DNA of 40,114 nt from Alphaproteobacteria bacterium (GTDB lineage: Bacteria > Pseudomonadota > Alphaproteobacteria > Rhizobiales > Aestuariivirgaceae): NCBI GenBank assembly GCA_024279095.1, contig JAJRRY010000035.1:1-40114 (forward strand), given 5' to 3'. The notes under the pieces are model-generated. The model saw nothing but the letters and a program-made list of their open reading frames with translations. It was not told where the DNA came from and did not search any database. Positions 6,382-30,945 of the stretch are shown piece after piece (position 1 is the first letter of the stretch; the number at the start of each line of letters is the position of its first letter). The position numbers and the translations under genes were made by a program.

Positions 6382-7362
6382 ATGACCATGCCGGCAACCA
6401 GCAGCGAAGAGATCGCGGTGACCGCCCCCACGGACGACGACCTGCTGATCTCCGCCTCGGGGCACGTGCCACCGGAGCGGTTGCGACTGCTCCAGTCGCT
6501 TTTCGGGCGCGTCTGCCAGACATTGCGCGACCGCTTCTTCGAGATCGCCGGTGTTCCCTTCGAGGTGACGCTGGAGGAGCTGGACGTGATGCCGGTGGAG
6601 CAGGCCGGCATGAGCGGTGCGGAATGGCTCGTCGCCCTGTGCTCCATCGAGCGCCAGAACACCCTGAGCTGCATCGGGCTGGACGCCGGAGCGATCAATC
6701 TGGTCATCGAGGCCTTTCTCGGTGGCGGAGCGCAGGGGCGCAGCGCGCCGCCGCCCCGCGACTGGACGCCGTTCGATCAGCTCATGACCGGACATGCTGC
6801 GGAGACGGTCATCGATACCATGACCGAGGTCTTTGCGCCGTCGGTCGACTTCGTGATGCGGATGGACGAGATCCGGCGCGCGGATGCTGCAAGGGAACTG
6901 ACACTCGAGGAGCGGCCCGTCCTGACCGCCCGGCTGACCGTGCAGGCATTGGGGGATGGCGGCACGATGGTCGTGGTGCTGCCGCCCGGACTGTTCAGCA
7001 GCATGCGCCTTTGCGCTACCGATGCAGGAAGCGCCGATGCCGTCGCGGATCAGGAGGAAAATCCGTGGGCACGGGCCTTGGACAGTCAGCTGAAGGCCTC
7101 GGAGGTGATCTGCCGGGCAGTGCTGGATGGTGGCGAGATCACGCTGGGTGATGTTGCCCGGTTCCGTCCGGGCCAGATTCTCGAACTGGACGTGCGTTCC
7201 GATGCGCCTGTGCGTCTGGAATGCGATGGCGAGACCCTCTTCCATTGCGATCTCGGGCAGGCCGGTGGCGCCTTCGTGCTGAAGCTGCGCCGGCCGGTCA
7301 GCAGCGAGGAGGAATTCCTGGAATCCGTGATGGGGGCGAAAGGGGCGAATGGCAATGAGTGA
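6382..7362 (+). CDS. fliM: Flagellar motor switch protein FliM (divergent rhizobial type)
   Basis: 326-residue C-ring protein linking CheY binding to FliG and FliN. The middle domain is divergent, but the Glu/Leu-rich start of the CheC-like fold (RVCQTLRDRFFEIAGVPFEV) and the central WLVALCSIERQNTLSCIGLD are recognisable. The C-terminal SpoA domain is clear (ITLGDVARFRPGQILELDV, then LFHCDLGQAGGAFVLKL). The canonical N-terminal CheY-binding segment (LSQxEIDALL) is not visible in residues 1-30. Position between motA and fliN supports the call. The stop overlaps the fliN start by eight bases. Confidence 0.85.
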   Translation: MTMPATSSEEIAVTAPTDDDLLISASGHVPPERLRLLQSLFGRVCQTLRDRFFEIAGVPFEVTLEELDVMPVEQAGMSGAEWLVALCSIERQNTLSCIGLDAGAINLVIEAFLGGGAQGRSAPPPRDWTPFDQLMTGHAAETVIDTMTEVFAPSVDFVMRMDEIRRADAARELTLEERPVLTARLTVQALGDGGTMVVVLPPGLFSSMRLCATDAGSADAVADQEENPWARALDSQLKASEVICRAVLDGGEITLGDVARFRPGQILELDVRSDAPVRLECDGETLFHCDLGQAGGAFVLKLRRPVSSEEEFLESVMGAKGANGNE

Positions 7363-7822
7363 CGCAACCGATATTGCGAACCGGGAAGAAGCGGGGACGG
7401 AGAATGCTGCCGGGGGACAGGCCGGAGAGGCTGGCGGTGCGGCAATGCGCGATGGGGCAGGAAAGGCCTCCGCGGAAGAGACCGCACGGCAACGCACGCT
7501 GGGCGATTCCCTGTAGCAGGAAGCGGTGGAAAAGATGGGACGGCAGGTGGCGGAAGGCGAGGGGCCGGGCATCGATCTGGTCATGCGCATTCCGGTCACC
7601 GTGCAGGCTGTGCTCGGGCAGGCCCGCATGCCCATCGCCAGCCTCATGAAGCTGGGGCCCGGGTCGGTGGTGCCCCTGGACCACAGGGTTGGCGAGCCGG
7701 TGGATGTGGTGGTCAACGGCCGTTTGGTGGCGCGCGGCGAGGTTGTGCTGCTGGAAGAGGACAGCGAACGTTTCGGCATCTCCCTGACGGAGATCGTGGA
7801 GCCTGGAAGCAGATCGTGCTGA
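7355..7822 (+). CDS. fliN: Flagellar motor switch protein FliN, frame interrupted by an in-frame TAG
   Basis: The SpoA domain of FliN is intact in the C-terminal half: LVMRIPVTVQAVLGQARM, VPLDHRVGEPVDVVVNGRL, ARGEVVLLEEDSERFGISL. FliN forms the lower C-ring with FliM. A natural ATG at 7355 overlaps the fliM stop by eight bases, as coupled switch genes usually do, and opens an acidic Ala/Gly-rich leader like that of rhizobial FliN. Codon 54 (7514-7516) is TAG, flanked in frame by CTG and CAG, after which the same frame runs on to TGA 7820-7822. The ORF track therefore shows only the part from GTG 7526 (98 residues), which has AGGAAG in front and would keep the whole SpoA domain. It may be read through, reinitiated at 7526, or mutant. 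TAG acts as a normal stop elsewhere in the window. Confidence 0.8.
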
Positions 7823-7841
7823 CCGGAAAGATGGGGTGAGG

Positions 7842-8855
7842 ATGATGGCCCGCCAAACCGGACACGTCTCTGCGCGAGCGCGCGAGCTTCCCGGCGCATG
7901 GAAGGCCGTGACCGTCCTCAACGTGCTGGATGGCCCCACCCTCTAGAAGCTGGTGAAGTACCTCGATCAGGAGGACATCGCCCGTATTCGTTCCCTGGAC
8001 ATGGAGCTGGAGCCTGTTGCGGCGGAGGAGTTTGCCGCCATCATCGAGGAATTCGCCGGCCGTTTCGTGCGCCGTCTGCGCATGGTCGGCGACTACCGCA
8101 GCCCGGAAGGGATTCTCGAGGAGGTCCTCGACCCGGACGAGCTGGAAAGGCTCACCAGCGGTGAGGACGATGGCCCTCCGGTGTGGGAAGACGATCGCTT
8201 CGCGTCCCCCGAGGTGCTCCAGCCGCTGGTGGAGCAGGAACACCCGCAGATGGCGGCCTTTCTGCTGTCACGCATCGATCCGGATCTGGGGGCAGGTGTG
8301 ATGAAGGCTGTGGAGGAAGGGCGGCGCAACGAGATTCTGCTGCGCATGCTGGACATGCGCCCCGTCTCGCCTGGTGTCACCATGGTGGTCGAGCAGCACA
8401 TTCGGGTTTCCTTCATCGAGGATACCTCGGCGGCGCGCAATGCCGAAGCCCGCGCCCGCATCGCCAGCATCGTCAACCGCATGGACAAGGAGCTGGCGGA
8501 ACAGTTCCTGGAGGCTCTGAAGCAGACCCGTCCGGAGGAGGCGAAGGAAATCGGCAGGATGCTCTTCTCTTTCGAGGACATCGTGCGGTTGTCCGAAAAG
8601 GACCGCCTGGTGCTGTTCGACAAGGTGCCGGCGGAGCTTACCATCAAGGCTCTGCACGGGGTATCCGAAGAGCTCGTGAACCTGGTTCTGGAGGCGTTGG
8701 GCGGTCGCATGCGCAAGATGGTGGAGGCGGAGCTCTCCGCCGGCAATCCGCCGCCCGAGGAGGAAGCGGCAGAGGCGCGCCGGGAGATTGCCGCAATGGC
8801 GCTGGAACTGGCTGCCGCCGGCGAAATCGTCATAGAGGACGGCGAGGAGGCCTGA
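7842..8855 (+). CDS. fliG: Flagellar motor switch protein FliG, frame interrupted by an in-frame TAG
   Basis: FliG joins the MS ring (FliF) to the C ring and carries the torque helix. Downstream of 7953 the frame holds the FliG middle domain (EHPQMAAFLLSRIDPDLGAG, an EHPQ motif) and the C-terminal domain (MLFSFEDIVRLSEKDRLVLF, then TIKALHGVSEELVNLVLEAL). In the same frame, ATG 7842 opens 34 codons (AWKAVTVLNVLDGPTL) matching the start of the FliG N-terminal domain. Codon 35 (7944-7946) is TAG, then KLVKYLDQEDIARI continues the domain. From memory, the stretch lines up without gaps with rhizobial FliG (KAAAVLLAMG...KLLKYF), so the TAG replaces one variable residue. Starting at GTG 7953 would delete the first FliF-binding helices. 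Readthrough or a nonsense mutation are the choices. Confidence 0.8.
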
Positions 8856-8880: not shown

Positions 8881-9957
8881 ATGGCGGAAGAGGCCGACAA
8901 GGACAGCAAGACCGAGGAACCCAGCGAGAAAAAGGTTTCCGACGCCATCCGCAAGGGCAACGTTCCCTACTCGCGGGAACCCGCGATCCTCGCCTCCTTT
9001 CTGGCCATGCTGCTGGTCGCCGCCTTCCAGATCGGAAGCGGTGGCCTTTCCATCTCCGGCGGCCTGATGATGCTGCTGGAAAAGCCCGGGCAGTGGCATC
9101 TCGACGAGGGGGGCGTGGCTCTCCATCTGATGCGGCAGGTCACCTTTCTGGCGCTCGGTTTCCTGGTGCCGATCTTCGTCATGTTCATCGTCGCCGCGCT
9201 CGCCGCCTCCTTTTCGCAGAACCTGCCGCGGGTGGTGTTCCGGCGTATACGCCCCGACTTCTCGCGCATCTCGCCACGCAAGGGATTGAAGCGCATCTTC
9301 GGAGCCCAGGGGTGGGTGGAATTCCTGAAGGCCATTTTCAAGTTCACGGCCGTTTCCGTCATCGTTGCCGTGCTCCTGAAATCCGAAGCCGGCTACGTCA
9401 TGGCCACGCTGCTGCAGAGCCCCCGGACTCTCCCGGAGGTGCTGCTGGCGCTCTCCATGAAGCTGCTGGCCGCCGTGGTGCTGGCTGCTGTGGTGCTGGC
9501 GCTGGCGGACTTCGCCTGGTCGCGGCGCTACTGGTGGATCAACCTGCGCATGACCCGTCAGGAGGTCAAGGACGAGCGCAAGGAGCTCGACGGCGATCCG
9601 ATCGTCAAGGCCCGCCGCCTGTCTCTGGCGCGTGACCGGCTGCGGCGCTCCATGATGGCGGCGGTGCCGCAAGCCACCGTGGTCATCGCCAATCCCACCC
9701 ATTACTCCGTGGCGCTTCGCTATGACCGGGCGCGCGACCCGGCCCCCGTGGTGGTGGCCAAGGGCCAGAACCTGATTGCCTTGAAGATCCGCGAAATCGC
9801 GCAGGAGAACGACGTGCCGGTGATCGAGAACCGCACCCTGGCCCGGGCCCTGTATGCCCAGGCGGAGGTGGACCAGATGATCCCCGAGGAATTCTATCCG
9901 GCCGTCGCCGAAATCATCCACTACGTCTTCTCGATGGAGCGCAACAGGACACGCTGA
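8881..9957 (+). CDS. flhB: Flagellar export gate protein FlhB
   Basis: 358-residue inner-membrane protein that switches export substrate specificity. The N-terminus is the usual charged leader (DKDSKTEEPSEKKVSDAIRKGNVPYSRE), followed by four membrane segments between residues ~35 and ~215. The cytoplasmic domain contains VKDERKELDGDP and the autocleavage site NPTHYSVALRY (cleavage between N and P). It ends soon after the core domain, without a long C-terminal tail. It lies 25 bases after fliG at the end of the motor switch operon; no strong ribosome binding site is seen. Confidence 0.93.
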   Translation: MAEEADKDSKTEEPSEKKVSDAIRKGNVPYSREPAILASFLAMLLVAAFQIGSGGLSISGGLMMLLEKPGQWHLDEGGVALHLMRQVTFLALGFLVPIFVMFIVAALAASFSQNLPRVVFRRIRPDFSRISPRKGLKRIFGAQGWVEFLKAIFKFTAVSVIVAVLLKSEAGYVMATLLQSPRTLPEVLLALSMKLLAAVVLAAVVLALADFAWSRRYWWINLRMTRQEVKDERKELDGDPIVKARRLSLARDRLRRSMMAAVPQATVVIANPTHYSVALRYDRARDPAPVVVAKGQNLIALKIREIAQENDVPVIENRTLARALYAQAEVDQMIPEEFYPAVAEIIHYVFSMERNRTR

Positions 9958-10148
9958 AAAGCGGCAAGCCGCTTCCGCTCGTCGAGGGCATCCTCGACGC
10001 CCTGCTCAAGCAGGCTGCAAAGGAGGGTCATGCGGTGATCCCTCCTCGCTCCGGAGCGTCCGGCCAGCGCGTGCACCAGTTCGCCGAAGCTGCGTCCGCC
10101 GTACTGCCCGCCGTTTCTTTCAAGTCGCCTGGTATCTGCGCAGCGCAT
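9921..10148 (-). CDS. Small protein of unknown function, antisense to the flhB 3' end
   Basis: A 75-codon frame whose third positions are almost all G or C, as in the real genes here, while the opposite strand shows no plausible gene between flhB and 10120. The product looks like a soluble helical protein (SFGELVHALAGRSG, then LLEQGVEDALDERKRLAAFQ). The start is uncertain: ATG 10148 overlaps the end of the PilZ gene upstream, suggesting coupling, and internal starts at a GTG or at ATG 10031 are possible. It ends in TAG inside flhB, overlapping it by 37 bases. No family recognised. Confidence 0.45.
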   Translation of the reverse strand: MRCADTRRLERNGGQYGGRSFGELVHALAGRSGARRDHRMTLLCSLLEQGVEDALDERKRLAAFQRVLLRSIEKT

Positions 10149-10473
10149 AGTACTTTCCCGCCAGGGCGGCATGTGCCGGTCCCGATCGCAGGCAGCCCCG
10201 CTCGCCCTCCGCAAAGGCGAGGCCGACCTCGTTGCCCCGCTGCCAGACGACGCGTGCGACGTGCAGCGTGCCAAGCTCGTCGTCGAAGAACTTCACGTGC
10301 TCGGGAAGACGGATGCGTCCGGCCAGCCGAATACGCACGCCAAGAGGCGAGCGGTCGAAGATCAGACAGTCCGAAATGAAGCGATTCTGAAGGGTGGCCG
10401 TCTTGCCCGAGCGCAGGCGGGTCCGCCTGCGGGGCGCCTTGCGTCGGTTGCCTGTGCCGCACATTGTGGACAT
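10120..10473 (-). CDS. PilZ-domain protein (predicted c-di-GMP receptor)
   Basis: 117 residues forming essentially a single PilZ domain. The c-di-GMP-binding elements are visible: an Arg-rich RRRTRLRSG segment (residues ~15-24) matching RxxxR, and DRSPLGVRI matching the D/NxSxxG motif, followed by the barrel strands and ARVVWQRGNEVGLAF. There is no output domain, so it would act by binding a partner. It sits just behind the flagellar switch operon, where PilZ proteins often adjust motility in response to c-di-GMP; that role here is inferred. It starts at ATG 10473. Confidence 0.8.
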   Translation of the reverse strand: MSTMCGTGNRRKAPRRRTRLRSGKTATLQNRFISDCLIFDRSPLGVRIRLAGRIRLPEHVKFFDDELGTLHVARVVWQRGNEVGLAFAEGERGCLRSGPAHAALAGKYYALRRYQAT

Positions 10474-20178: not shown

Positions 20179-20685
20179 ATGATCAGGATCTCCCATGTCT
20201 TCGACGAAGATGCCTACATTGCCGCCAGTCATGCCATGTGGTGGCGGAAGCGGCAGACGGCCCGCACGAAATATCTCGGCATCGCCTTTCTTGCCGCCCT
20301 GCCGGTTTCCCTGTGGCTGGCCGTCACCCGGGGGATGCATTTCACGTTCCTGGCGGTGCTGGCGGTCAACCTTCTGCACTGGGTCTTCGACTGGCCGCTC
20401 ACCCGCGCCATCGTGCGTCGCCGATTTGCGGAGATGCCCTCTGCCGGCCGGCGCATCGCCTGGGAGATCGGCGAGGACGGGCTGACGGTTTCCACGGACA
20501 CCGGCGAAAGCGGGACCTTCGGATGGGAGATGGTGCGCGACGCCTGGGAAAGTCCCTTCGGTTTCGTTCTGGCGCAGGACCACAACGTCACCCACTGGCT
20601 GCCGAAGTCGGCTTTCGCCTCGGAAGAGGATGTGGAAAAGATGCGCGATCTTCTGTGGCAGAAGGTCAGGTCGACAGCAGCCTGA
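20179..20685 (+). CDS. YcxB-like membrane protein
   Basis: 168 residues with two close membrane segments (residues ~34-55 and ~57-75: YLGIAFLAALPVSLWLAV, FTFLAVLAVNLLHWVF) and a soluble C-terminal part with IAWEIGEDGLTVSTDTGESG, FGWEMVRDAWESPFGFVLA and LPKSAFAS. This is the layout of the YcxB-like family (PF14317-type), whose function is unknown. The ORF track starts far upstream at 19870, inside the mscL region. I take ATG 20179; ATG 20161 is an alternative, both with weak ribosome binding sites. The 3' end overlaps convergent cbbR by 20 bases. Confidence 0.7.
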   Translation: MIRISHVFDEDAYIAASHAMWWRKRQTARTKYLGIAFLAALPVSLWLAVTRGMHFTFLAVLAVNLLHWVFDWPLTRAIVRRRFAEMPSAGRRIAWEIGEDGLTVSTDTGESGTFGWEMVRDAWESPFGFVLAQDHNVTHWLPKSAFASEEDVEKMRDLLWQKVRSTAA

Positions 20686-21592
20686 CACCTTCGGTGCGCA
20701 GAAAGTCGAGGAAGGCCTGTGCGACCATGGACAGCCGCTTGCCCTTCAGATGCACCGCAAACCATTTGCGCCGCAGCGGGAAGTGCTCCACGTTCAGCAC
20801 CGTGACCTCGCCGCTCTTCAGTTCCCGTGCGATGTTGTGCAGCGGCAGGACCGAAATGCCCAGTCCCGCAAGTACCGCCTGCTTGATGGCCTCCGAGGAC
20901 CCGAGCTCCATGGTCGGGCGCACGTTCAGTCCATGCTCGGCAAAAAGATTGTCCACCGCCAGCCGCGTTCCCGAACCCGGTTCGCGCACCAGAAAACGGG
21001 CCTGCGCCAGCCGTGTCAGGGAGATGTTCTTCAGCTGCCGGAATTCGTGATCGGGCGGCGCCACCACGACCAGCTCGTTCTCCAGAAAGGGATGAGCCTC
21101 GACCTCCAGCCCGGCCGGCACACGGCCCATGACGATGAGATCCTCCTCTCCGGTGGTCAGAAGCCGGATAACCCTGGCCCGGTTGGTGACTGACAGATGG
21201 GGCTCCACGTTCGGATGCTCCTTGAGGAATTCTCCAAGCAGTCGTGGCAGAAAGTACTTGGCGGAAGTCACCGCCGCGATCCGCAGATTGCCCCGCACTT
21301 CCCCGGACAGGCTCCGGCATTCCTCCTCCAGCCGATGGAGGCGGTCGAAGATGTCGCCGGCGGTTTCCAGCAGCCTTTCCCCCTCCGGCGTGAGGCCGAG
21401 GGAGCGCCCGCTCTGTTCGAACAGTTCCGCCCCCATGGCATCCACCAGTTTCTTCACCTGCATGGAGACGGTCGGCTGCGTCAGATGCAGGGCGTCCGCG
21501 GCAGCGGTATAGCCGCCATGGCGTGCCACGGCCATGAAGATCTCCAGCTGTCGCAGCGTGATGTGACGGGCCAGCCGGCTGCGCATGGTCAT
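20666..21592 (-). CDS. cbbR: LysR-type regulator CbbR
   Basis: 308 residues. The N-terminal winged helix-turn-helix is typical of Cbb[41 protein letters not shown]. The effector domain follows ([58 protein letters not shown]), the last two being hallmarks of CbbR. It is divergent from cbbL across 186 bases, the standard arrangement, and should activate the cbb operon in response to a metabolite such as NADPH or RuBP. The 3' end overlaps the YcxB-like gene tail. Confidence 0.93.
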
Positions 21593-21778: not shown

Positions 21779-23197
21779 ATGGCAAAGAAGTATGAAGCTG
21801 GCGTGAAGGAGTACCGGGAAACCTACTGGGATCCCGACTACACGCCGAAAGACAGCGACGTGCTGGCCTGCTTCAAGGTGGTGCCGCAGCCCGGCGTGCC
21901 GCGCGAGGAAGCGGCTGCTGCTGTGTGTGCCGAGTCCTCCACCGGCACCTGGACGACGGTGTGGACGGACCTGCTGACGGATCTGGACTATTACAAGGGG
22001 CGCGCCTACGCGGTAGAGGATGTGCCGGGCGACGACGAGGCTTTCTATGCCTTCATCGCCTACCCCATGGGCCTGTTCGAGGAAGGCTCGGTGGTGAACC
22101 TGTTCACCTCGCTGGTGGGCAACGTGTTCGGCTTCAAGGCCGTGCGCAACCTGCGCCTGGAGGACGTGCGCTTCCCGCTGTGGTTCGTGACCACCTGCTT
22201 CGGTCCGCCCAACGGCATCCATGTGGAGCGTGACAAGCTGGACAAGTACGGCCGTCCGCTGCTGGGCTGCACCATCAAGCCGAAGCTGGGCCTGTCGGCC
22301 AAGAACTACGGCCGCGCCATCTACGAGGCTCTGCGCGGCGGCCTGGACTTCACCAAGGACGACGAGAACGTCAACTCCCAGCCGTTCATGCGCTGGCGTG
22401 ATCGCTTCCTGTTCGCTCAGGAGGCCATCAACAAGGCCGAGGCCGAGACCGGCGAGCGCAAGGGTCACTACCTGAACGTCACCGCCCCGACGGTGGAGGA
22501 GATGTTCAAGCGCGCCGAGTTCGCCAAGGAGATCGGTTCGCGCATCATCATGTCCGACTACCTCACCCTGGGCTGGGCGGCACACAACTCGCTGTCCCGC
22601 TGGTGCCGCGACAACGGCATGCTGCTGCACGTGCACCGCGCCATGCATGCGGTGATCGACCGTCATCCCAAGCACGGCATCAACTTCCGCGTGCTGGCCA
22701 AGCTGCTGCGCCTTCTTGGCGGCGATCACCTGCATTCCGGCACCGTGGTGGGCAAGCTCGAGGGTGATCGCCAGGCGACCCTTGGCTGGATCGACCTCCT
22801 GCGTGACCGGTACGTGAAGGAAGACCGCGCCCGCGGTATCTTCTTCGATCAGGACTGGGGTCAGATGCCGGGCGTCTTCCCGGTGGCCTCGGGCGGCATT
22901 CACGTCTGGCACATGCCGGCGTTGGTCTCCATCTTCGGCGATGACTCGGTGCTGCAGTTCGGCGGCGGCACGCTGGGCCATCCGTGGGGCAACGCCGCTG
23001 GCGCGGCGGCAAACCGCGTGGCGCTGGAGGCCTGTGTGCAGGCGCGCAACGAGGGTCGCGAGCTGGAGAAGGAAGGCAAGGACATCCTTACCAAGGCCGC
23101 GAAGCACTCTCCGGAGCTCAAGATGGCGATGGAGACGTGGAAGGAAATCAAGTTCGAGTTCGATACCGTGGACAAGCTGGACGTGGCGCATCGCTGA
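21779..23197 (+). CDS. cbbL: RuBisCO large subunit, form IA
   Basis: 472 residues, catalytic subunit fixing CO2 onto ribulose 1,5-bisphosphate. Catalytic features are all present: [15 protein letters not shown], the carbamylated Lys with its metal ligands in [20 protein letters not shown], loop 6 [11 protein letters not shown], and [13 protein letters not shown]. Sequence style ([34 protein letters not shown]) is green-type form IA, not the red-type IC/ID common in many alphaproteobacteria. The track ORF begins 194 codons early; ATG 21779 has GAGGGAG eight bases upstream and gives the normal length. With cbbQ/cbbO downstream and no carboxysome genes, this is the non-carboxysomal IAq arrangement. 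Confidence 0.98.
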
Positions 23198-23264: not shown

Positions 23265-23660
23265 ATGTCCGAAGTCATGGATTATCCCTCGCGGCTTTCT
23301 GACAACAAGAGCCGCAAGTTCGGCACCCTTTCCTATCTGCCGCCGTTGACGGACGAGGAAATCCGCAAGGAGGTGGAGTACATCGTCCAGAAGGGCTGGC
23401 AGCCGATGATCGAACACACCGAGCCGGAAAACGCTTCCCTGCACTACTGGTACATGTGGAAGCTGCCGATGTTCGGCGAGACGGATGTGGATGCCATCCT
23501 GGCGGAACTGGAAGAGTGCCGGAAGGCCAATCCCGGCCATCACATCAAGCTGGTGGGACTTGACAATATCCGTCAGACGCAGGGCACGGCACTGGTTGTC
23601 TATCGTGGTGATCCGCCCGAGATGGTCATGTGCGCCGAGCGTGTCAAACCCGGCTTCTGA
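23265..23660 (+). CDS. cbbS: RuBisCO small subunit
   Basis: 131 residues. Small-subunit motifs: [60 protein letters not shown] and [17 protein letters not shown]. It completes the L8S8 form I holoenzyme. It lies 67 bases after cbbL with a strong GGAGG six bases before ATG 23265, and is followed by a terminator that separates it from cbbQ. Confidence 0.97.
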
Positions 23661-23873: not shown

Positions 23874-24701
23874 ATGAGCGAAAGCAGCGTGCAGGAATTC
23901 AACAAGGAGGACTTCGTCATCTCCGAGGAGCCCTACTACCATCCGGTGGGGGACGAAGTGGAGCGCTACATGGCGGCCTATGACGTCCGGATGCCCGTGA
24001 TGCTGAAGGGGCCGACGGGCTGCGGCAAGTCGCGCTTCGTGGAATACATGGCCTGGAAGCTGAAGCGCCCCCTGATCACCGTGGCCTGCAACGAGGATAT
24101 GACGGCAGCCGATCTGGTGGGTCGCTTCCTGCTGGACGTGAACGGCACCCGCTGGCAGGACGGGCCGCTGACGGTGGCCGCACGCATCGGCGCCATCTGC
24201 TATCTGGACGAGGTCGTGGAAGCCCGTCAGGATACCACGGTGGTCATCCATCCGCTGACCGATCATCGTCGCGAGCTGCCGCTGGAGAAGAAGGGCGAGC
24301 TGGTGAAGGCGCATCCGGACTTCCAGCTGGTCATCTCCTACAACCCCGGCTACCAGAGCCTCATGAAGGACCTGAAGCAGTCCACGAAGCAGCGCTTCGG
24401 TGCGATGAGCTTCGACTATCCTTCCCATGAGGTGGAGACCGAGATCGTCGCGCATGAGGCCGGCGTCGACGCCGACGTGGCGGCAAAGCTGGTGCAGATC
24501 GCCGAACGCTCGCGCAACCTGAAGGGACACGGTCTCGATGAGGGCATGTCCACCCGTCTGCTCATCTATGCCGGCCAGCTGATCGCAAAGGGCATCAGCC
24601 CGGCCGCCGCTTGCCAGATGGCACTGGTTGAGCCGCTCACGGACGATCCGGATATGCGCGACACTCTGCAGGCCGCTGTGCAGACCTTCTTCGGCGAGTG
24701 A
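23874..24701 (+). CDS. cbbQ: RuBisCO activase subunit CbbQ (MoxR-type AAA+ ATPase)
   Basis: 275 residues, AAA+ motor of the CbbQO RuBisCO activase, which removes inhibitory sugar phosphates. Walker A is [10 protein letters not shown] and Walker B is [10 protein letters not shown]. Sensor 1 lies in VISYNPGYQ, and the arginine-finger region around [17 protein letters not shown]. It starts at ATG 23874 with GAGGAG upstream; the track's 23802 lies in the leader. It lies 63 bases before cbbO. Confidence 0.95.
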
Positions 24702-24764: not shown

Positions 24765-27098
24765 ATGAGCGTCGATGTGGATGAATACCGCGAGGAGCTG
24801 GTGGCAGCGGCTCCGGAGCTGGAGGATCATCTGGACACCCTGGTGCATGAGGCCGCGCGCTACATGTCGCCACGCGGGATGTCGGATTACCTGGATGGTG
24901 CGCGCGCCTTCGCCCGCTTGAAGAAGGATCCGCAACTGGTCGTCTCGTGGCTCGACGAAATGCCGGAAGTGGTGCGTGAAGTGGGCGAGGATGTCATCCG
25001 GGATGTGGCGACCAGCATCCTGAAACTGGCATCCATGACCTCCGGCTCGGTCCTGACGCTGATGGTGGACACCATGCCGCTGGCCGCCCGGAGACTGGGC
25101 GACGCCACCTTGCTGCGCGCCTATCTGCAGCTGCTGCACCGCATGGCGGCCAAGGCCCCGCGTGGCCTGAGGCCCATGCTGGAGGTGCTTGACGAACTGC
25201 TGACCAAGCTGACGCTCTCTGGCCTGCGCAAGTGGATCGATTTCGGGGCCGAGGCCTATCGCCGCGATTTTGCCAGGCAGGCGGACTATTTCGGCTTGAA
25301 AACGGAAGATTCCCGTGCCGTTCTGCAGCAGGAGCGCAAGGGGACGCTGTTCATCGACGTGCAGCGCAAGATCAACTTCTACCTGCGGGCCTTCTGGGGG
25401 CGGGACTTCTTCCTGCGTCCGGCCAGCGCCGATCTGGAGGGGTTCCGCCCCTATATCGAAGGGCGGGCCCTGCATCTGCCCGATGCGGTGGACGATTTCG
25501 GAGATGTCTCGGGGCTCGAACTGTATCGCGCCATGGCGGCGCACATGGCGGCGCATGTGGTATATACGGACGCTCCACAGGGTGACGCCGACATGCTGAG
25601 TCCGGCGCAACGCTTCTTCATCGGACTGGCGGAGGATGCGCGGGTGGAATACTGCGCCGGGACGGAATTCCCCGGCATGAAGACGGTATGGCGCCGGCTC
25701 ATGCCCGATCCGAATGATGGCCACAAGCACGAGCACCGCGGCATGGCGCTCATCGAGGCCATGGTGCGGCATCTGCTGGATCCGCAGGCGCGCACTGGCG
25801 ATCCGGAAGCCGATGCCATCATCGCGCGTTTCCATGAACAGATCCCGCAGCGGGATCTGGACACGACCTTTTCGCGTGATATCGGGCTGGAGCTGTTCAA
25901 TCTGCTGAGCGGCCGGCGCGATATGCCCTCCCTGCGCATCCTGGAGAGGCTGCGGGTGCCCTATCGCGACGACAATCGGCTGATCTGGTCGTCCGAGGAG
26001 GAGGACTGGTATGACACCACGGCCTATCTGCCGCACAAGGAGCAGGTGCGCAAGTACGTTTCGCTGATGGAGTTCGTCAATGAGGTGGACGTCGAAACGG
26101 CCGGGGACGATGCACAGGAGATCTGGGTGCTCGGTTCCGAACTGTTTCCCTATGAGGACGAGGGCGTCTCCTACAACGAGATGGAGGGCAAGGAACCGAT
26201 CATCGGCCCGTTCCACTATCATGAATGGGACTATCAGGTGCAGTTGCACCGCCCCTCGTGGGTGAGCGTCTATGAACACCGTCCGAAGCGTCTGCAGCCT
26301 GATGTCATCGACGGGATTCTGGCCGAACATCGCGGTATCGTCCACAGATTGCGCCAGATCATCGACAAGCTGCGTCCCCAGGGGCTGACCCGCGTGCGCA
26401 AGCTGGAGGATGGCGACGTGCTCGACATCAATGCCGCGGTGGATGCCATGGTCATGCTGCGCATAGGTCTCAACCCGGATCCGCGCATCACCATGCGCTA
26501 CCAGTTCAACCGGCGTGACCTGGCGGCGCTCATCCTGCTGGACCTCTCCGAATCCACCAATGACAAGGTGCGCGATTCCGACAAGACGGTTCTGGAACTG
26601 ACGCGCGAGGCCTGCGCGCTGCTCAGTTTCGCCATCGAGGGCATCGGCGATCCCTTCGCCATCCACGGGTTCAGTTCGGATGGCCGGCATGACGTACGCT
26701 ACTGGCGCTTCAAGGATTTCGATCAGCATTTCGACGACGAGGTGAAGAGCCGTCTGGCCGGCATGCAGGGCGGACTGTCCACGCGCATGGGGGCCGCCAT
26801 GCGCCATGCCGGTGCAAAGCTGCTGCAGCGGGGCGAAAAGCACAAGCTGCTGCTCGTGATCACCGACGGCGAACCGGCCGACATCGACGAGCGCGATCCG
26901 CAATATCTCCGGATGGATACGCGCAAGGCGGTGGAGGAGTTGCGGCGCAACGGCATACAGAGCTATTGCCTCACGCTCGACCCCCATGCCGACATGTATG
27001 TTTCGCGCATCTTCGGTGCCACGAACTATACGGTCATCGACAACATCAAGCGCTTGCCGGAAAAACTGCCCACCCTGTTCGCATCTCTGACCCGGTGA
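24765..27098 (+). CDS. cbbO: RuBisCO activase adaptor CbbO (VWA domain)
   Basis: 777 residues. CbbO links the CbbQ hexamer to RuBisCO. The C-terminal von Willebrand A domain has an intact MIDAS: LILLDLSESTNDK, the Thr in GGLSTRMGAAMRHAGA, and LLLVITDGEPADIDE. The N-terminal ~500 residues are helical and include FFIGLAEDARVEYCAG and HKHEHRGMALIEAMV, typical of CbbO/NorD proteins. ATG 24765 has GGGAG seven bases upstream. It is the last gene of the cbb operon. A 1076-residue antisense ORF across it in the track is a GC-rich shadow. Confidence 0.95.
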   Translation: MSVDVDEYREELVAAAPELEDHLDTLVHEAARYMSPRGMSDYLDGARAFARLKKDPQLVVSWLDEMPEVVREVGEDVIRDVATSILKLASMTSGSVLTLMVDTMPLAARRLGDATLLRAYLQLLHRMAAKAPRGLRPMLEVLDELLTKLTLSGLRKWIDFGAEAYRRDFARQADYFGLKTEDSRAVLQQERKGTLFIDVQRKINFYLRAFWGRDFFLRPASADLEGFRPYIEGRALHLPDAVDDFGDVSGLELYRAMAAHMAAHVVYTDAPQGDADMLSPAQRFFIGLAEDARVEYCAGTEFPGMKTVWRRLMPDPNDGHKHEHRGMALIEAMVRHLLDPQARTGDPEADAIIARFHEQIPQRDLDTTFSRDIGLELFNLLSGRRDMPSLRILERLRVPYRDDNRLIWSSEEEDWYDTTAYLPHKEQVRKYVSLMEFVNEVDVETAGDDAQEIWVLGSELFPYEDEGVSYNEMEGKEPIIGPFHYHEWDYQVQLHRPSWVSVYEHRPKRLQPDVIDGILAEHRGIVHRLRQIIDKLRPQGLTRVRKLEDGDVLDINAAVDAMVMLRIGLNPDPRITMRYQFNRRDLAALILLDLSESTNDKVRDSDKTVLELTREACALLSFAIEGIGDPFAIHGFSSDGRHDVRYWRFKDFDQHFDDEVKSRLAGMQGGLSTRMGAAMRHAGAKLLQRGEKHKLLLVITDGEPADIDERDPQYLRMDTRKAVEELRRNGIQSYCLTLDPHADMYVSRIFGATNYTVIDNIKRLPEKLPTLFASLTR

Positions 27099-27105
27099 GG
27101 CGTTG

Positions 27106-27489
27106 TCACGAATGCCGGGACAGACGGTCGGCCAGAGCGGAGGACAGACATTTCATCGCCGGGGCGCGCAGATGAGTGGCCATGTAGTGATAGTAATTGA
27201 GGGTGCAGGAGATGTCCTCGTGCAGGGAGGCCCGACACTTCAGGGCGGAAAAGTCCGTCCATGCAAGGACGGGGACGCCATGTCGTGTTTCATCGATGAT
27301 GCACCAGGCAGGATCCTCGAGTATGAGGTGCATGCCCGGCATCCCCGGCAGGGGGAATTCCGCGTGCGGCCCCGTCCGCAGGCGCAGACGGCGCCAGAGA
27401 TTGTAGATGCGCGCATCAATTCTGTCGGGGCGTGCTGCAAGAACGGGCACGTCCCGAAGACGCCTGGCAATTCCGATCTTCAGAGCCAT
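27106..27489 (-). CDS. Uncharacterised protein, paralogue of 30592-30945
   Basis: 127 residues, soluble, unknown family. It shares with the protein at 30592-30945 the order NLWRR, EFPLPG/EFPLEARPG, an acidic aromatic segment, D(E/A)T(R/Q)xGxPxLxW, LHEDISC/LHADVPC and (N/Q)YYxYxxxxxRxxA. The two are clearly homologous over ~90 residues, so this - strand ORF is real although it faces cbbO (end to end, eight bases apart) and is divergent from the aldolase gene. No catalytic motif is recognised. It starts at ATG 27489. Confidence 0.7.
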   Translation of the reverse strand: MALKIGIARRLRDVPVLAARPDRIDARIYNLWRRLRLRTGPHAEFPLPGMPGMHLILEDPAWCIIDETRHGVPVLAWTDFSALKCRASLHEDISCTLNYYHYMATHLRAPAMKCLSSALADRLSRHS

Positions 27490-27575
27490 GCGCCCATTAT
27501 ACGCCGGAATGCGTCGAAAGCCATCCCTGCGGAAACGGCGGGCAGAACCGTGAACGGAAAGGGAGAGATAGCATC

Positions 27576-28751
27576 ATGCCGCTTGTGAACATGAAGGACA
27601 TGCTGGAGCATGCCCATGCCAACGGCTACGCCGTGGGAGCCTTCGACCTGGTGTCGCTGGACTTTCTGGAGGCCATCATGGCGGCCGCGGAGGAGGCCCG
27701 TGCACCGGTGATCCTCAGCCTGGCGGAATCCCACTTCGAATACTTCGACTTCGAGCTGGCCATGGCGGCGACGGTGCGCGCGGCGCGGCGGGCCTCCGTT
27801 CCGGTGGCCATCCATCTGGACCATGGGCATTCCCTTGAAAAGGCCGTACAGGGCATCCGCTACGGCTGCAATGGCGTCATGGTCGACGCCTCGCATCATC
27901 CCTTCGAGGAGAACGTGCGCATCACCCGCGAGGTGGCGGAAATGGCCCATGGCTGCGGCGTGCCTGTGGAAGGCGAGCTCGGCTACGTTCCCGGCGTGGA
28001 GGGTGAGGACGCTGAGCGCCATCCCGGGGAGATCGCCTACACCACCCCGGAGGAGGCGGAGCGTTTCGTACGCGAGACCGGCGTGGATTTCCTTGCTGTC
28101 TCCATCGGCACCGTGCATGGCCGCATGAAGGGCGAGCCGCGGCTGGATTTCGAACGGCTGAAGGACATCAACGCGCGCCTCGGCATCCCGCTGGTCATCC
28201 ATGGCGGAACGGGACTTTCGGACGAACAGTTCCGCAGGCTGATCGCTGGTGGTGTCACCAAGATCAACTACTATACAGCGCTTTCCGATGCCGCCGCTGG
28301 GGTCATTCGGGGCAATGCGGCCACGGATGCGAAGGGCTATACCGCTCTGGTCGCCGGCATCCGGGAGGCCATGAAGGCGGAGTGCCTGCGCTGCATCCGC
28401 CTGTGGGGTTCGGAGGGGCGGGCGGAGGAGGTGCTTGAGCACGCCCGACCGTGGCGCGAGGTGGAGCATCTCATCGTCTACAATGTGGAGGGCATCGACG
28501 AGGACGAGGTGCTGGCCCGCGCCGAGGAGGGCCGTCGTGTGCTCGGGGCAATTCCCGGCGTGCGTTCCGCGGAGACCGGCGTGGCCGTGAACGGGGATGC
28601 GAAATACCGTTACTGCTGGCTGGTACGGTTCTGTCATCCGGCGGTGATAGACAGCTATCGCGACCATCCGGACCATGTCCGGTTTGCCGATGAGAAGTTT
28701 CGTCCCGTGGCGGGTGACCGGATCAGCATCGACTTCCTGCTCGACGAATGA
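27576..28751 (+). CDS. fba: Class II aldolase (fructose-bisphosphate/tagatose type) fused to a Dabb domain
   Basis: 391 residues. Residues 1-280 form a zinc-dependent class II ketose-bisphosphate aldolase: VNMKDMLEHAHANGYAVGAF, the zinc-site HLDHGHSLEKAV, DASHHPFEENV, the metal-binding His in SIGTVHGRMKG and in VIHGGTGLSDEQ, then VTKINYYTALSDAA. The normal enzyme ends there. Residues ~295-390 add a Dabb (stress-responsive alpha/beta barrel) domain: VEHLIVYNVEGIDEDEV, GAIPGVRSAETGVAV, VIDSYRDHPDHVRFADEKFR. The track starts 48 codons early; ATG 27576 has GGGAGAG ahead. Location just after cbbLSQO suggests use in the Calvin cycle; substrate is not provable from sequence. Confidence 0.88.
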   Translation: MPLVNMKDMLEHAHANGYAVGAFDLVSLDFLEAIMAAAEEARAPVILSLAESHFEYFDFELAMAATVRAARRASVPVAIHLDHGHSLEKAVQGIRYGCNGVMVDASHHPFEENVRITREVAEMAHGCGVPVEGELGYVPGVEGEDAERHPGEIAYTTPEEAERFVRETGVDFLAVSIGTVHGRMKGEPRLDFERLKDINARLGIPLVIHGGTGLSDEQFRRLIAGGVTKINYYTALSDAAAGVIRGNAATDAKGYTALVAGIREAMKAECLRCIRLWGSEGRAEEVLEHARPWREVEHLIVYNVEGIDEDEVLARAEEGRRVLGAIPGVRSAETGVAVNGDAKYRYCWLVRFCHPAVIDSYRDHPDHVRFADEKFRPVAGDRISIDFLLDE

Positions 28752-28906
28752 GCATGGGGCGTTTCGCCCTGCATCTGCGCCGTCCGCACACGGAAAAGAG
28801 ATCCGGGTCGCGGAAACTGGCGCAATCGTGAAAATGCGTGGCTTGCATCCGGCGTTACTGTCACCGCATGTTTTCCGGTGATCGAAAACAGGCGGAGAAA
28901 AGTTTC

Positions 28907-29827
28907 ATGCGCTGGCGATTCAAAACGGATCTGACGGAAAACGATGTGACGCCGGAAGAGGTTTTCCGCGCCCGGCGCCGGTTCATGGCGGCGGCCGCAG
29001 GCGCGGCGGCAGTGGGTGTGCTGGCGGGCCGAACCGCTGCGGCCAGCCGCTCCGACGCCGTTTTGAAGGACGAGCCGACGCGCTATGAAGATGCCACGAC
29101 CTACAACAATTTCTACGAGTTCGGTACCCGCAAGAGCGATCCGGCGAGGCTGGCCGGGCAGCTGACGGTCAGGCCCTGGACCGTGCGCATTGATGGGCTG
29201 GTGGACAGACCGCTTGAATTGTCGCTCGATGATCTGCTGAAGGAGATGGAGATCGAGGAGCGCATCTACCGGTTCCGCTGCGTCGAAGGCTGGGCCATGG
29301 TGGTGCCTTGGAACGGCTTCATGCTGCGCGATCTGCTGCGGAAGGCCGGCGTACGCAAGGAAGCGCGCTACGTGGCCTTCGAGACGCTGTTGCGGCCCTC
29401 CGAGATGCCCGGACAGAAGGGACGTCTGCTGGAATGGCCCTACCGCGAGGGATTGCGGCTGGACGAGGCCATGCATCCGCTCACTCTCATGGCCACCGGC
29501 ATGTACGGAAAGCCGCTGCCGAAGCAGAACGGGGCGCCTTTGCGTCTGGTGGTACCGTGGAAATACGGCTTCAAGTCCATCAAGTCGGTGGTCCGCATCA
29601 CCCTGACCGAGAAACAGCCGCCTACCACTTGGAACATGATGGCGCCGGACGAATACGGGTTCTATGCCAACGTCAATCCGAACGTCGATCATCCGCGCTG
29701 GTCGCAGGCCACGGAGCGGCTGCTCGGCAGCGGCCTGTTCGCCGGCAGCCGCCCCACGCGCATGTTCAACGGTTATGACGAGGTGGCAGAGCTCTACAGG
29801 GGCATGGATTTGAGGAAATACTTCTGA
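28907..29827 (+). CDS. msrP: Protein-methionine-sulfoxide reductase catalytic subunit MsrP (YedY)
   Basis: 306 residues, periplasmic molybdenum enzyme that repairs oxidised methionine in exported proteins. A Tat signal is visible ([21 protein letters not shown]). The Moco-binding Cys is in [18 protein letters not shown]. Other family stretches are [24 protein letters not shown]-type [12 protein letters not shown], and [20 protein letters not shown] 28907 has GGAGAAA nine bases upstream and gives the usual length. The stop overlaps the start of msrQ, its membrane electron donor. Confidence 0.95.
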
Positions 29828-30486
29828 TGACATTCGCGCAGACACCGATGGGCCGCACGGGCGGCATGGCGGCACGCATCGGACGGCTGGCCGGGCATGT
29901 GCCTGTGGCCACCGTGTATGTCGTCGGCATTCTGCTGATTGCATGGCCCTTCATGCAGGCGCTCACCGGTGCGCTGGGGCCCGATCCGGTGCGCACGCTG
30001 GAGCAGAAACTGGGGCTGTCCGCGCTGCAGGTTCTCGTCGTCATGCTGGCGCTGACGCCCCTGCGGCGTTTTGCCTGGATCAATCTCCTGCGCTTTCGCA
30101 GGGCGCTGGGACTGACGGCGCTGATGATCGTCTCCGCGCATCTGGCTGTCTGGCTGTTTCTCGATGTGCGAGATCCGGCACGCATATGGAACGACATCCT
30201 GCGCCGGCCGTGGATCACCGTCGGCATGGCCGCTTTCCTCATGATGCTGCCGCTGGCGGCCACCTCTTCCGGTGCCGCGATCCGCAGGCTCGGAGCCGCC
30301 GCATGGCGCAGACTGCACATGCTGACATACGTCCTCGTGCCGCTGGCCGCGGTGCATTTCGTCATGGTGCGCAAGGGCTGGCAGATAGAGCCGCTGATCT
30401 ATCTGGCATTCATCGTTCTGCTTCTGACGCTCAGGCTGGAGCAACTTCTGCCACGACGCCGGAACAAGAAGCGCTCTCGTCCGTGA
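29827..30486 (+). CDS. msrQ: MsrP haem-binding membrane subunit MsrQ (YedZ)
   Basis: 219 residues with five or six membrane helices and the ferric-reductase-like fold. Haem-ligating His candidates are in LMIVSAHLAVWLFLD and in RLHMLTYVLVPLAAVHFVMV. The start of the domain reads VLVVMLALTPLRRFAWINLLRFRRALG. It passes electrons from the quinone pool or a flavin reductase to MsrP. It starts at ATG 29827 with TGATGA overlap of msrP, so the two are one transcript. Confidence 0.94.
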   Translation: MTFAQTPMGRTGGMAARIGRLAGHVPVATVYVVGILLIAWPFMQALTGALGPDPVRTLEQKLGLSALQVLVVMLALTPLRRFAWINLLRFRRALGLTALMIVSAHLAVWLFLDVRDPARIWNDILRRPWITVGMAAFLMMLPLAATSSGAAIRRLGAAAWRRLHMLTYVLVPLAAVHFVMVRKGWQIEPLIYLAFIVLLLTLRLEQLLPRRRNKKRSRP

Positions 30487-30591: not shown

Positions 30592-30945
30592 ATGAACGCG
30601 CCCTTTGCCGGCATTCCCTTTCTGCGGCGTACCGAGGACGCCATTCCGGCTGCCACGTGGAACCTGTGGCGCCGCTGGCGCAAGCGTCATGACGGGCCTC
30701 TCGAGTTTCCCCTTGAGGCGAGGCCCGGTACCAAGGTACTGATTACCGACGAGTGCTGGCTCTACTATGATGCCACGCAGGGGGGCATGCCGCTGATTCT
30801 CTGGCTCGAGTTCCGGCAGGACCGCGATGCCCTGCATGCGGACGTGCCCTGTTACGTGCAGTACTACGACTATCCCGGGGCGCGCTTCCGGGATGCGGTG
30901 CTGCGCGAGGCTGCCGAACGCATGGAGCGTGATCTCGCCAGATGA
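30592..30945 (+). CDS. Uncharacterised protein, paralogue of 27106-27489, coupled to trpF
   Basis: 117 residues, soluble, unknown family. Aromatic-rich: ATWNLWRRWRKRHDGPLEFP, DECWLYYDATQGGMPLILWL and YVQYYDYPGARFRDAVLREA. It is homologous to the - strand protein at 27106-27489, including the NLWRR, EFPL, G-x-P-L-x-L-W and YYxY elements. It overlaps the trpF start by four bases (ATGA), so it is translationally coupled to phosphoribosylanthranilate isomerase; whether this reflects shared function is unknown. ATG 30592 is 105 bases after msrQ. Confidence 0.75.
   Translation: MNAPFAGIPFLRRTEDAIPAATWNLWRRWRKRHDGPLEFPLEARPGTKVLITDECWLYYDATQGGMPLILWLEFRQDRDALHADVPCYVQYYDYPGARFRDAVLREAAERMERDLAR

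Follow-up and report, generated by a model that had tools for sequence, protein, structure and literature searches.

The gene at positions 27576-28751 (+) of the window, by which we mean the whole 40,114-nucleotide stretch of DNA analysed here, encodes a class II aldolase fused to a C-terminal Dabb domain, and it belongs to a genuine protein family that is linked to RuBisCO by both co-occurrence and gene neighbourhood. Within this family the aldolase and Dabb sites have been lost independently and repeatedly, and the Dabb site is usually the better conserved of the two. Both domains are known families, whereas no published description of the architecture or of its RuBisCO link was found in the open literature library that was searched for the aldolase-Dabb fusion, for Dabb with RuBisCO, and for cbbQ/cbbO with an aldolase. 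In the explanation that we prefer, and to which we would give an even chance, RuBisCO-based autotrophs use the fusion as an accessory enzyme with two separable active modules.

Gene and domain architecture

The open reading frame encodes 391 aa, its start codon being supported by an M-P-[LM]-V N-terminus common to 10 relatives. The ATG is preceded by a purine-rich, ribosome-binding-like stretch (AAAGGGAGAG; 27558..27567, +), and a promoter scan around the gene yielded scores no better than those of shuffled sequence. Pfam assigned residues 4-282 (27585..28421, +) to the class II, Zn-dependent aldolases (F_bP_aldolase, PF01116; E 6e-92, 308.5 bits against a cut-off of 25.5), in line with PDB relatives and Foldseek, and residues 297-387 (28464..28736, +) to Dabb (PF07876; E 6e-11, 43.4 bits against a gathering score of 25), in line with the structure. 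When the C-terminal 106 aa were searched on their own, Dabb was recovered at E 4e-12. The Pfam boundaries and the AlphaFold2 model place an inter-domain linker at residues 283-296 (28422..28463, +). The domain search thus bore out the first-pass annotation, which had read an aldolase core followed by a Dabb domain of about 95 residues; 91 residues were matched. The AlphaFold2 model of the whole protein had a pLDDT of 92 and a pTM of 0.91, and the Dabb part modelled alone as a single chain reached a pLDDT of 96.6. Among solved Dabb structures, Foldseek matched this part best to 3bde (E 7e-10, TM 0.85). The fusion gene contains the only Dabb domain of the genome.

The host is an alphaproteobacterium from the same genus as Thermopetrobacter sp. 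TC1. Of the 10 other sampled genomes of this genus, 8 have the fusion as one contiguous gene, as do genomes of other families, so that a chance fusion, a frameshift or an assembly artefact could be ruled out.

Linkage to RuBisCO

In the window, the fusion gene follows a cbb cluster consisting of a cbbR-type LysR regulator gene (20666..21592, -), cbbL for the form IA RuBisCO large subunit (21779..23197, +), cbbS (23265..23660, +), cbbQ for the AAA+ activase subunit (23874..24701, +), cbbO for its activase partner (24765..27098, +), and a gene for a small conserved protein that matched no family (27106..27489, -). Both Alpha- and Gammaproteobacteria have further loci with the order cbbR, cbbL, cbbS, cbbQ, cbbO, small gene, aldolase-Dabb. 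Elsewhere the fusion comes after a form II cbbM-Q-O set (L061), adjoins form IC RuBisCO (L058, L098, L137, L147, L150, L165), or adjoins a divergent cbbR without RuBisCO. Taken over 103 fetched loci, cbb genes were present on 54 (47 with RuBisCO or cbbQO, 7 with cbbR only); the other 49 had no cbb genes nearby in the available DNA, many of these being short contigs.

The co-occurrence at genome level is consistent with this neighbourhood. A scan of named-species genomes with the Dabb part returned 75 fusion loci. Nearly all of these belong to Alpha- or Gammaproteobacteria, and many of the hosts are sulfur-oxidising autotrophs by name or by relatedness; the hosts include Sedimenticola, Thiodiazotropha, Thiosymbion, Thiohalobacter, Thiogranum, Chromatiales, Thiotrichales and a Gallionellaceae MAG. 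In a class-level sample of Gammaproteobacteria the fusion was found in 46 of 321 genomes, and RuBisCO was encoded by 44 of these 46 as compared to 106 of the 275 genomes lacking the fusion (Fisher p 3e-14, in a test that ignores relatedness). Within the order of the window, where the fusion is absent from the remaining sampled genera of the host's family and is carried by a few other families, RuBisCO was present in 7 of 7 fusion genomes and in about 79 of 291 genomes, weak matches judged to be RuBisCO-like proteins having been excluded by hand. Moreover, among 50 fusion genomes picked mostly because the fetched locus lacked RuBisCO, 48 encoded it elsewhere. The expectation that the fusion would track with cbb genes, rather than occur mostly in non-autotrophs, was therefore supported.

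Several other features of these loci were noted. The small protein encoded between cbbO and the fusion gene (127 aa) has a paralogue of 117 aa at 30592-30945 (+), and neither copy was matched by Pfam or NCBIfam. In about 20 loci a homologue occupies the interval from cbbO to the fusion gene on the + strand, and in L054, L081, L082 and L094 a homologue is located just downstream of the fusion gene. The first copy is inverted in the window. A second conserved protein, of about 108 aa and likewise without a Pfam or NCBIfam match, is encoded at L062:3000-3326 and in 13 further loci, in many gammaproteobacterial clusters between cbbS and cbbQ. Downstream of the fusion gene (28838-30486, +), a gene for an MsrP/YedY-like molybdopterin oxidoreductase (PF00174) was found, followed by one for a membrane protein that is MsrQ-like as judged by eye.

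Active-site residues of the two halves

All catalytic residues of the aldolase superfamily are kept in the window protein, as determined by alignment with solved class II aldolases. These are D82-H83 in HLDHG (27819..27824, +), which in this family serve as the catalytic acid/base and the first Zn ligand, respectively; H181 in GTVHG (28116..28118, +), a Zn ligand that is Q in some relatives; H209-G210-G211 in HGGTG (28200..28208, +), providing a Zn ligand and the phosphate loop; and N231 in N231-Y-Y-T234 (KINYYTALS; 28266..28277, +), a family-specific variant of the KINxxT motif. At this last position the fusion family has KIN(Y/F)(Y/F)T, as opposed to the KIN-V-N-T of solved fructose-bisphosphate aldolases (FBAs). 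The replacement of H181 by Gln, together with E132 by Val or Ile, was seen in L139, L140, L143, L145, L146, L148 and L178; according to structure titles, the FBA of H. pylori has been crystallised with H180Q, which is probably the same position.

The protein passed TIGR00167 (243.7 bits against a cut-off of 215.6) and fell short of the cut-offs of all NCBIfam equivalogs for FBA or tagatose-bisphosphate aldolase, including those of the Calvin-type FBA TIGR01521 (129 bits against 496) and the fructose-bisphosphate aldolase TIGR01859 (268.6 bits against 343). Foldseek placed the aldolase core among the class II FBP, sulfofructose-phosphate (SqiA) and YdjI aldolases. A literature search on the substrate residues of FBA gave no paper. 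The absence of a 'YDxRK' segment was considered as a marker of a substrate other than FBP and was dropped, as a tagatose-bisphosphate-aldolase-like relative lacks the segment too.

The Dabb half resembles olivetolic acid cyclase (OAC). In profile alignments to OAC chains, H298 (28467..28469, +) is the equivalent of OAC His5, and Y361-RDHPD-H367 (28656..28676, +) contains the equivalents of Tyr72 and His78, which in OAC form the acid/base pair of the aldol cyclisation (PMC7962319). The position of OAC His57 is occupied by Y346 and is weakly conserved, being H or R in some relatives. When the Dabb profile of the family was compared with solved structures, Mll5499 was matched at 4e-11 and OAC at 6e-8, and the nearest folds with known chemistry in Foldseek include OAC and the hydroxynitrile lyase of Passiflora, both of which are C-C bond enzymes. 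The conserved His/Tyr/His set and the presence of hydroxynitrile lyase among the nearest folds suggest that a catalytic or ligand-binding Dabb domain is more likely than a bare dimerisation module. In addition, the fusion family has its own signature FRPxAxxR (F375-R-P-V-A-G-D-R382; 28698..28721, +), the arginines of which are missing from Mll5499 as aligned and might suit a phosphorylated ligand.

Independent loss of the two sites

Alignment of all fusions revealed that many lack aldolase catalytic residues, while the Dabb signature of the family (H298, N303, IPGV, W348, RF, YxxHPxHV, FRPxAxxR, D386) is untouched. Among 105 relatives that were classed, both sites were intact in 71, the aldolase was broken and Dabb intact in 22, the reverse applied to 3, and both sites were broken in 9. 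The direction of loss is less lopsided than these totals, since the named-genome scan was baited with Dabb and favours an intact Dabb, and both kinds of loss are present in the gammaproteobacterial set that was collected with a whole-protein profile. On a quick tree, parsimony required the aldolase state to change 9 times and the Dabb state 7 times, although the exact placement of these changes is unsure owing to several long branches. For pairs of aldolase-broken, Dabb-intact copies with usable dS, dN/dS amounted to 0.21-0.39 in the aldolase and 0.03-0.11 in Dabb (one pair, 0.56 and 0.24), compared to about 0.07-0.14 for the aldolase of intact pairs. In fourteen genomes every fusion copy detected at E 1e-12 was aldolase-broken, most of these genomes being MAGs that are possibly incomplete (G331, G332, G333, G336, G338-G341, G344, G345, G352, G355, G365, G450). 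In G328, one paralogue is aldolase-broken and Dabb-intact, and the other is aldolase-intact and Dabb-broken. L041 contains near-tandem fusion copies (7179-8348 and 9218-10303), of which both aldolases are strongly degenerate and the Dabb parts very similar.

The degenerate copies could be pseudogenes or decaying paralogues that are uninformative on function, a reading in keeping with the nine relatives in which both sites are broken and with the frameshifted L155 locus. We consider it very unlikely, because the frames are open, Dabb remains under low dN/dS in aldolase-broken lineages, the Dabb signature is perfect in the very diverged copies of L041, L060, L077, L090 and L157, with Pfam still calling Dabb where scanned, and the broken copy is the sole one in the fourteen genomes. 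Pure relaxed decay of the broken copies is likewise not favoured by the low dN/dS of their Dabb parts.

The same data bear on a structural or regulatory protein, in which Dabb would be a dimerisation or oligomerisation module only and the aldolase fold a scaffold, for example for the binding of RuBisCO or CbbQO. Dabb proteins are as a rule dimeric, some lineages can do without the aldolase site, and the gene often comes after cbbQO, all of which agree with such a role. It is nevertheless rather doubtful, as all aldolase-broken, Dabb-intact copies have kept the pocket-type His/Tyr/His residues and not surface features only, and as 71 of the 105 relatives retain a full aldolase site under the selection given above. 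Dimerisation or sensing, which the first-pass annotation had suggested for the added domain, thus appears disfavoured relative to an active or ligand-binding role by the conserved catalytic-type residues and the stronger selection on Dabb.

Possible function

The first-pass annotation had also raised the idea of a Calvin-cycle-adapted aldolase. Its autotrophy part stands, given the RuBisCO co-occurrence described above, whereas a role as FBP/SBP aldolase is weakened by a canonical FBA elsewhere in the genome and by the repeated loss of the Zn ligands of the fusion with Dabb intact. A canonical Calvin-type class II FBA of 354 aa adjoins pgk on contig C6 of the same genome and is expected to supply the FBP/SBP aldolase activity. 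Of 50 fusion genomes tested, 45 encode such an enzyme (at 65-90% identity, with three fragments among them), by which the fusion was ruled out as the only FBA of the cell. The fusion could still be an extra Calvin-cycle FBP/SBP aldolase that Dabb merely stabilises or regulates. Its complete class II core is nearest to FBAs and is linked to cbb genes, and genomes with the CBB cycle are generally enriched in aldolase copies (PMC7895386). Yet this is unlikely in view of the separate canonical enzyme, the broken aldolase site of 31 among the 105 relatives, some of which are the sole copy of their genome, and a KIN motif unlike that of solved FBAs.

Since either half can lose its active site, the fusion probably serves as an accessory enzyme related to RuBisCO, rather than simply as the aldolase of the Calvin cycle. 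In this preferred explanation, the N-terminal Zn-dependent aldolase would make or break a C-C bond in a DHAP-type sugar phosphate, while the C-terminal Dabb domain would form a dimer and present a pocket of its own, in which the OAC-like set H298, Y361 and H367 may have a catalytic or ligand-binding role. Dabb may act on or bind the same metabolite as the aldolase or a neighbouring one, in a pathway that the two halves would share. The metabolite would most likely be a RuBisCO-tied side product or minor intermediate and not FBP itself, and the aldolase and Dabb would represent two steps, or two activities, each of which can be retained without the other. Several observations speak against this explanation: persistence of the gene after loss of the aldolase site could mean that only oligomerisation or regulation matters; about half of the loci (49/103) show no cbb genes in the DNA available; and the OAC-type Tyr and His are shared by further Dabb proteins of unknown function, Mll5499 among them. 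A bolder version, which we hold to be improbable, is an enzyme with two active sites that chemoautotrophs would dedicate to a side product or inhibitor of RuBisCO, with the aldolase and the OAC-like Dabb catalysing linked C-C steps and the functions divided between paralogues or kept singly by lineage.

What is known of RuBisCO upkeep in chemoautotrophs concerns mainly CbbQO and, in the case of xylulose-1,5-bisphosphate (XuBP), a RuBisCO misfire product, CbbY. Removal of XuBP would be a specific form of the accessory-enzyme explanation: retro-aldol cleavage would yield DHAP and glycolaldehyde phosphate, and Dabb would handle the reactive aldehyde. Such a cleavage is chemically possible, as its reverse, an enzyme-catalysed aldol addition that joins DHAP and glycolaldehyde phosphate, is used in the laboratory to synthesise XuBP (PMC10212915). 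In plants, additional enzymes that remove XuBP have been postulated (PMC10212915), RuBisCO misfire products in chemoautotrophs have been called likely and unexplored (PMC4660213), and a HAD phosphatase gene adjoins or lies near the fusion gene in L061 and L034. However, no sequence feature indicates XuBP, and the fusion genomes also hold a CbbY-like HAD protein, a label based on similarity only, such that we regard this reading as highly doubtful. The CbbY-like phosphatase was found in 42 of 44 genomes with fusion and RuBisCO and in 93 of 106 RuBisCO genomes lacking the fusion; replacement of CbbY by the fusion was thereby ruled out, and no gap in the known removal of side products is visible, which also counts against the accessory-enzyme explanation. 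Same-strand CbbY-like HAD genes adjoining or near the fusion gene were recorded at L061:10309-11015, directly after the cbbM-cbbQ-cbbO-fusion cluster, L034:5939-6796 and L097:268-1068.

A widespread RuBisCO-linked protein with two catalytic-type sites, one often lost and the other strongly selected, suggests that sulfur-oxidising autotrophs have an unrecognised step around RuBisCO, and the natural single-site variants of the fusion offer a means to find this step.

Comparison with known systems

The fusion shares its fold, the Zn ligands H83/H181/H209, D82, the phosphate loop and N231 with the class II fructose/tagatose-bisphosphate aldolases (TIGR00167; PDB 7ncc, 7nc7, 3q94), which are 41-45% identical to its core in the best Foldseek alignments but lack the C-terminal Dabb and the KINYYT motif. 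The canonical Calvin-cycle class II FBA of the same genome belongs to this superfamily as well, is 31-37% identical to the core, and has no Dabb domain. CbbY, the XuBP phosphatase, and the CbbQO activase are possible functional neighbours in RuBisCO upkeep and sometimes genomic neighbours; their folds are unrelated to that of the fusion, and the CbbY-like gene co-occurs with it and is not replaced. For the Dabb half, the best match in both sequence and fold is Mll5499 (3bde), with which it has YxxHPDHVxF in common, although Mll5499 is a standalone protein without FRPVAGxR. Finally, the plant enzyme OAC has a fold at TM 0.84 to the Dabb of the fusion and the equivalents of His5, Tyr72 and His78 are kept, whereas it is only about 25% identical, stands alone, has a hydrophobic polyketide pocket (PMC7962319), and does not share FRPxAxxR, the fusion family's own motif.
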